A DNA stretch of 11,312 nt, from contig CAMSGF010000011.1 in assembly GCA_947058225.1 (NCBI GenBank), positions 1-11,312 of the forward strand. The letters run 5' to 3'. The notes under the pieces were generated by a model. It was given only the letters and a program-made list of their open reading frames with translations. It did no database searches and was not told where the DNA came from. The position numbers were made by a program, and so were the translations under genes. This DNA is from an uncultured Eubacteriaceae bacterium. GTDB lineage: Bacteria > Bacillota > Clostridia > Eubacteriales > Anaerofustaceae. Positions 4,164-5,741 of the stretch are shown here, one piece after another (the stretch's first letter is position 1; the number at the start of each line of letters is the position of its first letter).

Positions 4164-4191
4164 ATAATACCTCTTAATTTTTACTTTTTTT

Positions 4192-4219
4192 ATTATAGCA
4201 TAAAGTGCGTGGTTGTGAA
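4192..4219 (-). promoter_or_regulatory. Predicted sigma-A promoter of mnmE-mnmG-noc
   Basis: Read on the minus strand, the -35 box is TTCACA (4214-4219, 5 of 6 to consensus). A 16-base spacer follows, then -10 TATAAT (4192-4197), with TG one base upstream giving an extended -10. The start of transcription would fall near 4185, about 20 bases before the mnmE ATG, leaving room for the AAGAGG ribosome binding site. The -35 box lies only 9 bases from the outer stem of repeat copy 2. The prediction is by pattern only. Confidence 0.6.
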
Positions 4220-4228
4220 AGGGGTGGA

Positions 4229-4351
4229 GGGGCGGCGGCTTTTAAAGAGGAAAGATTTTAAAAATTCATTTTTAAAATATCTCCTTTTTAAAAGTTCAGG
4301 CGAATAAAATTCGCCTGTTAGTGAAGTGCGTTGCACTTCACCCGCCGCCCC
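4229..4351. repeat. Cloverleaf-type dispersed repeat, copy 2 (complete, 123 bp)
   Basis: This is the full version of the element seen at 1-112. An outer stem of ten G-C pairs joins GGGGCGGCGG (4229-4238) to CCGCCGCCCC (4342-4351). Inside are three hairpins with linkers of 0-3 bases. Hairpin 1 pairs 4239-4264 with 4269-4294 around loop TTCA, 26 positions with one G-T pair and two mismatches. Hairpin 2 pairs CAGGCGAAT (4297-4305) with 4309-4317 around loop AAA. Hairpin 3 pairs GTGAAGTGC (4321-4329) with 4333-4341 around loop GTT. The result is a four-way junction that could form in RNA, in single-stranded DNA or as a cruciform. No target-site duplication is obvious in the flanks. It lies between the proBA terminator and the mnmE promoter. 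It contains no convincing gene. The family is not one I recognise; comparison with BOX, REP or MITE elements is inference. Confidence 0.92.
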
Positions 4352-4454
4352 GCCCGTATTCTCTGCCAAACACAACACACATCTACAATAAAAACTTAAA
4401 AAGATTATTATATTATCATATAAAAACAATACTTTCATAAATAAATTATAAAAA
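4352..4454. other. AT-rich spacer without a gene
   Basis: This completes the 324-base gap between mnmE and proA, which also holds the mnmE promoter, repeat copy 2 and the proBA terminator. The 103 bases are mostly A and T, and I see no gene, RNA or strong hairpin in them. The minus strand contains TATAAT-like strings but no matching -35 box at proper spacing. An 81-codon minus-strand open frame (4193-4438) crosses this spacer and the repeat, and I do not consider it a gene. Confidence 0.6.
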
Positions 4455-4484
4455 TAAACCTCATCAATTTACTGATGAGGTTTA
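4455..4484 (-). terminator. Intrinsic terminator of proB-proA
   Basis: A perfect 12-bp stem pairs TAAACCTCATCA (4455-4466) with TGATGAGGTTTA (4473-4484) around a 6-base loop. On the minus strand it is followed by a T-rich tract (complement of 4441-4454, beginning TTTTT). It starts 3 bases after the proA stop codon, as expected for a rho-independent terminator. Confidence 0.88.
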
Positions 4485-4487
4485 AAA

Positions 4488-5741
4488 TTATTCTCTTATC
4501 TGACCATTGCCATTTATTATATATTTAACCGTAGTTAAATCATTTAATCCCATCGGACCTCTCACATGAAGCTTCGCAGTTGAAATTCCAATCTCACTTC
4601 CAAGTCCAAATTGTTCCCCGTCTGTAAATCTCGTTGAAACATTGACATAAACACAGGCACTGTCTACTTTAGATGTAAACTTCAATGAATGTTCGTAATT
4701 GTTTGTTACGATACATTCGGAGTGATGAGTTGAATATTTATTGATATGTTCTATAGCTTCATCAATATTATCAACTGTCTTAACTGCGATAATATAATCG
4801 TTATATTCTGTCATATAATCTTCTTCGCTTGCCTTTTTAACTTTTTCACTTCCCAAAACCTCAATAGTTTTTTCATCACCCCTAAATTCAACATTATGCT
4901 CCTTTAACCTGTCATAAACTTTGTGTAAAAAAACATCATCTACATTTTTATTGATTAAAAGTGTTTCAAGAGCATTGCATACGCTCGGTCTTTGAGTCTT
5001 GCCATTGTCCGTAAGTTCAACCGCCATATCAATATCAGCACTTTCGTCAATATATATATGACAGTTTCCCGCTCCTGTTTCAATGAAAGGAACCTTTGCT
5101 ATTTCTTTAACTGAGTTAATTAAATTTGCACTTCCTCTTGGAATCAATATGTCGATATAATCTACGAGTTCAGCCATTTCTTTTACATATTTTCTGTTCG
5201 TATCTTCAAGCAAAATAATGCTGTCCTTTGGAAGTCCGACTTTTGAGATAGCCTCTCTCATAATATCAGCTAGCTTCATATTAGTATTGATAGCTTCTTT
5301 CCCTCCCCGAAGTATACACGCATTTCCTGATTTTAAACAAAGTCCTGCAGCATCTATCGTAACGTTTGGTCTTGATTCAAATATTATCCCAACAACTCCA
5401 AGCGGCACTCTCTTTTTTATTATTTCCATACCGTTTGGTCTTACATTCCCACCTTCAATATACCCGACAGGGTCATCTAAAGCTATAACTTTTCTAATTG
5501 ACGTTGCAATACCTTCGATTCTCTCCTTTGTAAGAAGAAGTCTGTCCACCATAGATTCTTTTATATTATTTTCTTTTGCATTTTTAATATCTTTTTGATT
5601 CTCTTTTAAAATTTCTTCACTTCTTAAGACAATCTCTTTTGCTATTTCTTCAAGTGCATCGTTTTTAATTTTAGATGTGAGAGTAGATAATATGTAGCTT
5701 GCATTTTTCGCTCTCTTTCCAATTTCAACCATATTAAGCAT
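4488..5741 (-). CDS. proA: Gamma-glutamyl phosphate reductase (glutamate-5-semialdehyde dehydrogenase)
   Basis: This 417-residue cytoplasmic enzyme performs the second step of proline synthesis, NADPH-dependent reduction of gamma-glutamyl phosphate to glutamate-5-semialdehyde, which cyclises spontaneously before ProC acts. Family segments are visible in order: FESRPNVTIDAAGLCLKSGN (121-140), LRGGKEA (144-150), the ETGAGNCHIY region (221-230), and RPSVCNALETLL (251-262), where Cys255 is the catalytic thiol of this aldehyde-dehydrogenase-like family. The length is normal and the gene is intact. The start is the ATG at 5739-5741, with AAGGAGG (5749-5755) 7 bases upstream; a second Met at codon 4 would leave poor spacing. 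It follows proB after 29 bases in the same operon and ends at the terminator at 4455-4484. proC is not in the window. Confidence 0.98.
   Translation of the reverse strand: MLNMVEIGKRAKNASYILSTLTSKIKNDALEEIAKEIVLRSEEILKENQKDIKNAKENNIKESMVDRLLLTKERIEGIATSIRKVIALDDPVGYIEGGNVRPNGMEIIKKRVPLGVVGIIFESRPNVTIDAAGLCLKSGNACILRGGKEAINTNMKLADIMREAISKVGLPKDSIILLEDTNRKYVKEMAELVDYIDILIPRGSANLINSVKEIAKVPFIETGAGNCHIYIDESADIDMAVELTDNGKTQRPSVCNALETLLINKNVDDVFLHKVYDRLKEHNVEFRGDEKTIEVLGSEKVKKASEEDYMTEYNDYIIAVKTVDNIDEAIEHINKYSTHHSECIVTNNYEHSLKFTSKVDSACVYVNVSTRFTDGEQFGLGSEIGISTAKLHVRGPMGLNDLTTVKYIINGNGQIRE

Follow-up and report, generated by a model that had tools for sequence, protein, structure and literature searches.

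The window analyzed here, i.e., the whole stretch of 11,312 nucleotides, comes from one contig (CAMSGF010000011.1) of the draft genome of an uncultured Eubacteriaceae bacterium (GCA_947058225.1). Pfam matches identify genes for a ParB-family protein, MnmG, MnmE, an aldehyde-dehydrogenase-family protein, an amino-acid kinase, an S-adenosylmethionine synthetase, an Lrp/AsnC-type regulator, YpeB and a cell-wall hydrolase. The ParB-family gene is probably noc-like, and the aldehyde-dehydrogenase-family and kinase genes are probably proA-like and proB-like, respectively. Beyond the proA-like gene and its terminator-like hairpin, and before mnmE, lies an element that can fold into a four-way junction and belongs to a repeat termed family I. 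The gene jag, sought as a marker of a rearranged mnmE operon, gave no match, which is uninformative. The features of the window are the following:

1–112, + strand: second copy of the element, with hairpins at 1–55, 58–78 and 82–102 and the right arm at 103–112
4169–4225, + strand: left skirt, G/T-rich, C-poor DNA reading into the element, a family trait
4226–4354, + strand: whole family I element, a four-way junction with a 13-bp outer stem
4226–4238, + strand: left outer arm, GGA plus GGGGCGGCGG, the conserved stem foot
4239–4294, + strand: hairpin A (tall), with 26-nt arms that mismatch at 3 positions here; varies and covaries more than any other part of the family
4297–4317, + strand: hairpin B, 9 bp with a 3-nt loop; replaced by another perfect hairpin in L129–L131
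4321–4341, + strand: hairpin C, 9 bp with a 3-nt loop
4342–4354, + strand: right outer arm, CCGCCGCCCC plus 3 nt
4355–4415, + strand: right skirt, C/A-rich, G-poor DNA reading out, a family trait
4455–4484, − strand: intrinsic-terminator-like hairpin of the proA-like gene (ORF 4488–5741), before the element

The sequence 4229–4351 is predicted to fold as RNA into a four-way junction of −67.9 kcal/mol (z −11.7), and as DNA into a matching four-way junction of −46 (z −11.5); in both cases none of 200 dinucleotide-shuffled sequences folded as low. The two folds contain the GC-only 10-bp outer stem enclosing three hairpins, with nearly all bases paired, that the initial annotation had described. 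Its count of 26, 9 and 9 hairpin pairs holds for the two 9-bp hairpins with their 3-nt loops, while 3 of the 26 positions of the tall hairpin are mismatched, leaving 23 pairs and an internal loop when it folds as RNA. The cloverleaf thus stands, but its extent of 123 bp does not, since complementarity of the flanks carries the unit 3 bp further on each side, to 4226–4354, with a 13-bp outer stem and a total of 129 bp. Both flanks are present for 36 copies; in 75% of these the first outside pair is complementary, versus 35% in shuffles (0 of 2000 shuffles equaled it), and the second and third, mostly G-C, are complementary in 86% and 89%. In the window copy the first outside pair is an A-G mismatch. 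Across the family the outer stem is composed of GGN plus GGGGCGGCGG, in which the N pair covaries, and no further pairing of the flanks was found beyond the 13 bp. The second copy reported at 1–112 is confirmed; it is 94% identical to 4229–4351 and lacks the full left outer arm because the contig start cuts inside that arm.

Copies of family I and their surroundings

As the initial annotation had proposed, a covariance model was built, here from 33 copies, and used for searching. It gave 54 matches in the 1,127,717 bases of the 1.13-Mb draft genome, some of them cut or weak, and 52 in a second search with differing filters; the density is about one match per 20 kb. BLAST of the own genome returned 58 rows, in which 40 places scored as copies and the remainder were mostly self-complementary hits of the tall hairpin. 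With a strict pattern, 39 distinct intact copies were obtained from the stretches of the own genome examined, and counts on these 39 leave out copies cut at contig ends. The model had no match in 60 relatives, 66 other genomes of the order, or 390 others sampled from the class (391 including the own genome); these sets overlap and were searched with stricter filters. Viral contigs, plasmids and phages gave no match, and a scan of the window with Rfam 15 gave none at gathering score. The claim of a dispersed family unlike the standard REP and BOX repeats is thereby borne out, with many copies and no Rfam match. The initial annotation had named two outcomes that would speak against it, a family of only two copies and a match to a described repeat or RNA family, and neither was encountered.

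About 25 contig ends of the draft lie within or just beside copies, with some end pairs belonging to one copy, and such elements may therefore be under-represented in fragmented drafts. Several contigs (L142–L156) run into unrelated sequence and end tens of bases past the start of a copy; they resemble chimaeras formed at the hairpins during assembly or amplification. No intact copy was found in 48 contigs, a biased sample chosen for lacking family I hits, and a few of the ends of these contigs carry pieces of the stem foot. Contamination was considered as a cause of the element-free contigs and set aside; the composition has no clear split, though these contigs lean to higher GC. A degenerate copy in contig C61 (L135:1501–1617) has an altered stem foot, its outer arms ending in TAG versus CGG in most copies, and suggests that copies decay.

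All 39 intact copies lie clear of called open reading frames longer than 249 nt. Short frames of 183–249 nt overlap 10 of them and were set aside as spurious, genes being called as the longest open reading frames, without a gene finder. For the 31 copies with a gene called on both sides, the neighbors are tandem in 20, convergent in 9 and divergent in 2, as against 19, 6 and 8 in 33 control gaps of at least 150 nt from nine sampled contigs; the larger control contigs were chosen mostly for lacking family I hits (C1 has one). The orientation of the element within tandem gene pairs is 10 versus 10, without bias. Gene ends facing a copy were counted where at least 25 nt separates gene and copy. 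A terminator-like hairpin precedes the copy in 13 of 35 such ends, compared with 1 of 26 control gaps, and the scan found no own terminator in the other 22; the right-side hairpins at L010, L025 and L034 belong to a second family (family II, below) and were not counted as terminators. With 13 of 35 facing ends meeting a terminator first, a good part of the copies therefore lies in DNA that is possibly untranscribed, as for tolerated insertion.

Variation of the hairpin arms

The arms of hairpin A, about 25 nt long, differ strongly between copies yet stay complementary, and hairpins B and C mostly have 9-bp arms and 3-nt loops. In three copies (L129–L131) the sequence of hairpin B is different and still forms a perfect hairpin. 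Compensated double changes occur in 20 of the 47 consensus pairs of 33 copies. The cells with a double change and pairing kept number 117, versus 33.5 in shuffled and at most 48 in slid controls, and the covariation score is 0.224 versus 0.074 shuffled and at most 0.083 slid.

Mismatches are rare and show little preference for wobble. Over all helices of the 39 copies, 16 G-T, 13 A-C and 35 other mismatches were counted in 2189 pairs. Taken alone, hairpin A is flawless in 21 of the 39 copies; 18 substitution mismatches occur among its 980 pairs, besides 6 gap cells, and the G-T type accounts for 4 of its mismatches and the A-C type for 7. Columns 21–24 of the family alignment contain 16 G-U and 34 unpaired cells, an excess read as misplaced gaps in arms of unequal length because the copy-by-copy comparison of arms is without it. 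In copies transcribed from one side, 6 wobble-type changes stand against 14 non-wobble transitions on the transcribed strand (sense G-T 1, A-C 3; antisense A-C 5, G-T 11), a count that leaves out copies read from both sides (G-T 4, A-C 3) and from neither (A-C 2).

The loops were defined by peeling off Watson-Crick pairs in hairpins B and C and by taking the center in hairpin A. Hairpin B loops occur in both orientations, with GAA in 12 copies and TTC in 3, and GTA in 2 and TAC in 1; plain reversals or complements of these four are absent. Likewise, the inner loop of hairpin A is present as TC and as GA, and CT and AG are absent. The loops CAA and TCC of hairpin B and TACA of hairpin A have no reverse-complement partner. 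Inversion does not extend to hairpin C, in which 15 copies carry GTT, ATC, TTC, ATG or GCT with no exact reverse complement among them.

A structured RNA was one option of the initial annotation, and selection at the RNA level could in principle act on a transcript or on an mRNA-stabilizing 3′ element of the REP/BIME type. The very stable fold, the strong covariation and the tandem or convergent neighbors of 29 of the 31 copies agree with it. A G-U intermediate is commonly assumed for compensatory change in RNA helices (PMC8794818), and in REPs frequent G-T pairing has been used to argue for action as RNA (PMC3733652). In family I, G-T is about as rare as A-C, the transcribed strand has fewer wobble-type changes than non-wobble transitions, the element has no preferred orientation relative to transcription, many facing genes end in a terminator-like hairpin before the copy is reached, and an Rfam match is absent in the window. 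An RNA-level function is accordingly improbable, and this option of the initial annotation loses ground.

The rarity of G-T mismatches at the level of A-C, together with loops found in both orientations, indicates instead that the arms are kept equal at the DNA level. Hairpins can be maintained by template switching (PMC8794818), and in yeast this process yields homogenized arms and inverted spacers (PMC8604942). Family I exhibits both features of template-switch palindromes, homogenization without wobble preference in the arms and inversion of the spacers in hairpins A and B, not C. Selection for folded DNA may add to the equality of the arms, and selection for a DNA cruciform could, too, yield arms without a G-T preference.

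We therefore favor, at a probability of about 0.6, a palindromic DNA repeat that is non-autonomous and specific to the lineage, with hairpins kept up by template switching during replication. Family I would have spread through the genome as a non-autonomous element recognized via its folded form. Single-stranded DNA, e.g., of the lagging strand or of an extruded cruciform, would fold into the four-way junction with the GC stem, and the replicating polymerase would copy one hairpin arm from the other. Copying arm from arm would keep complementarity, let the sequence drift and flip the loops. An enzyme presumably acts on the folded strand, and the stem foot GGGCGG shared with family II may be what that enzyme binds. 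If a junction-recognizing enzyme moves family I, this would be DNA mobilized by its shape. Family I appears to be an unusually clear natural case in which RNA-style covariation is accompanied by a DNA signature, namely inverted loops and the lack of a wobble preference. Judged by covariation only, it would be taken for a structured RNA, and it is therefore a useful control for RNA-discovery pipelines.

The initial suggestion of a non-autonomous element in folded DNA is, in this form, the best-supported reading. Mobility itself we infer; the following searches turned up neither an empty site nor a target duplication nor a transposase. Flanking direct repeats of at least 5 nt occur in 0 of 36 copies within the offsets tested, and their mean length is 1.03 versus 1.17 for non-cognate flanks. 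The search for empty sites, another proposal of the initial annotation, was done by synteny with 70 proteins adjacent to copies; 17 have any hit in the stretches of relatives examined, and no neighboring pair was found together. Four Pfam families, those of the Y1 transposase (PF01797), the TnpB-type zinc ribbon (PF07282), IS110 (PF01548) and reverse transcriptase (PF00078), have no match in the 84.5% complete draft, and an autonomous relative is absent from it as far as these four families go. The ends of IS200/IS605 elements and integron attC sites would serve as the model for an enzyme acting on folded single strands whose sequence is poorly conserved, and extrahelical bases are typical of attC. 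Family I differs from IS200/IS605 in the absence of a Y1 or TnpB-type match in this draft.

Composition of the flanking skirts

Both flanks are biased in composition over about 80 nt. Read outward, C makes up 53% or 47% of the first ten bases (the last three stem pairs among them) and 16–32% thereafter, and G makes up 1–9%. The window provides examples of such outward C-rich, G-poor tracts at 4195–4225 and 4355–4395. The score for a switch in GC skew has a mean of 18.0 over 38 copies, with values from 1 to 40; when 32 element-free gaps are each scored at their best position, the mean is 9.7 and the maximum 18. The bias is independent of gene orientation, and in tandem pairs the side facing away from transcription shows it no less strongly. 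No shared motif, Chi-like or other, exceeds shuffles or the composition itself. Simple insertion leaves these symmetric C-rich skirts unaccounted for. Were the skirts a mutational by-product of breaks or stalled forks, their symmetry would be explained, though not why the inward strand gains G.

The skirts could alternatively belong to a bidirectional transcription-end element, in which the hairpin protects RNA 3′ ends and the outward C-rich, G-poor tracts load Rho on both sides. Such a role agrees with the composition of both flanks, with the scarcity of divergent pairs (2 of 31 versus 8 of 33 control gaps), with the facing gene ends that have no terminator of their own and with an encoded Rho RNA-binding domain. 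The Rho-like gene lies in contig C19 of the own genome (L171:518–2220) and has two matches to this domain; its reading frame is interrupted in the draft, by either a draft error or a real change. Rho loading fits the composition of the skirts but not their strength on the side away from transcription, and the excess of terminator-like hairpins already standing before copies and the interrupted rho frame likewise weigh against this role. Intrinsic termination does not apply, as the T-run after the stem is absent across the family and the right flank is C/A-rich. A transcription-end function is thus unlikely.

A chromosomal landmark or recombination site is another possibility. A protein would bind or cut the extruded junction, and the G/T-rich strands with their 3′ ends pointing inward would serve repair. 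In either flank, the strand whose 3′ end meets the element is indeed G/T-rich and C-poor, families I and II have the stem foot and the architecture in common and not the hairpin sequence, and a match about every 20 kb would suit a landmark. Nevertheless, the skirts have no motif enriched beyond composition, intact copies are missing from the 48 sampled contigs (a biased sample, with stem-foot pieces at a few ends), and the decayed copy of L135 is tolerated. A landmark or recombination site is likewise unlikely.

Known repeats and related cloverleaves

In comparison with known repeats, the lineage-specific DNA repeat favored above has much in common with REPs and BIMEs, which are dispersed, palindromic, mostly intergenic, located at tandem and convergent genes and often lineage-specific, and some of which are thought to be moved in trans (PMC3733652). 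However, REPs are described as 20–40 bp long with an unpaired GTAG or CGTC tag (PMC3733652), whereas family I is a four-way junction of 129 bp. Its ends are G-C pairs without such a tag, its flanks contain no motif and its G-T pairs are rare. PF01797, the family of the RAYT (Y1) transposase of REPs, is without a match, as noted, in the 84.5% complete draft. Bacterial MITEs such as RUP, NEMIS, ERIC and bcr1 (PMC3733652) are similar in size class and are non-coding and multicopy with inverted terminal arms; family I has the corresponding 13-bp stem and 39 copies, none of them in a reading frame longer than 249 nt. It differs from MITEs in having no target-site duplication, no autonomous relative among the four Pfam families searched in the draft, and three internal hairpins whose arms vary with pairing kept. 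Since its behavior is REP- and MITE-like while the REP tag and the MITE duplication are both absent, family I is filed as neither.

The stem-loop families of Cozzuto et al. 2008, which include Clop-1 of C. perfringens and Clot-1 of C. tetani, resemble family I in being repeated with a common secondary structure, and two thirds of them are structured and intergenic (PMC2267715). The main text of that paper uses none of the terms "cloverleaf", "branched" and "three stem"; family I is set apart from these families by description, and overlap is possible. Yeast mitochondrial GC clusters are likewise short, GC-rich mobile palindromes under structural constraint that can merge into larger folds, and the mechanism of their movement is given as unresolved (PMC4478555). 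They differ in being 42 nt long, or 86 nt when merged, in being flanked by AG or ACT repeats and in being organellar (PMC4478555). Among open-licence papers, no description of a bacterial element of this form was found, and a search for double-hairpin elements gave unrelated work.

A second family was identified in the own-genome stretches examined. Family II has five copies (L010:1070–1195, L025:983–1118, L034:1253–1370, L133:196–334 and L145:121–247), and the contig ends of L201 and L203 may carry further pieces. Its stem foot is GGGCGG in all five, followed by T and GC or TA, and is common to family I. It likewise contains three hairpins, here with the tall one in the center, and their sequences differ from those of family I. 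Double changes occur in 23 of 58 pairs with a covariation score of 0.421 versus 0.146 shuffled, and the skirts are less even, with one side often weak.

The regions around mnmE in other genomes (80 neighborhoods, 569,301 nt) were scanned for structure, with 5 hits. Two of these form a tandem pair of GC-stem cloverleaves in Eubacteriaceae bacterium RGIG6509 (L048:2636–2803, −132.6 kcal/mol), immediately upstream of mnmE; each GC stem closes three hairpins, and the first cloverleaf has 9-bp arms and 3-nt loops. To the left of the pair the DNA is C-rich and to the right it is G-rich, the opposite of family I. The other three hits were set aside as weak, long folds. In a scan of one stretch each from 20 relatives, all 9 hits were read as chance or coding folds. 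One stretch (L229) is without G or C and is probably masked.

The like architecture with unrelated sequence suggests a wider class, though not necessarily one of common descent. Families I and II and the double cloverleaf of the relative might form one mobile or structural class defined by architecture, in which a host enzyme would recognize the junction and the stem foot and generate the skirts, and template switching would free the hairpins to drift. We regard this as a tentative and on balance doubtful extension. A scan for hairpin clusters in 120 loci (1,131,410 nt) found one cluster of three hairpins, which is the first of the RGIG6509 pair, and five of two hairpins, three of them in one genome of the same family (L251). 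In that genome, L251:4320–4770 is a cluster of short perfect hairpins with 3-nt loops, six of which form three similar pairs.
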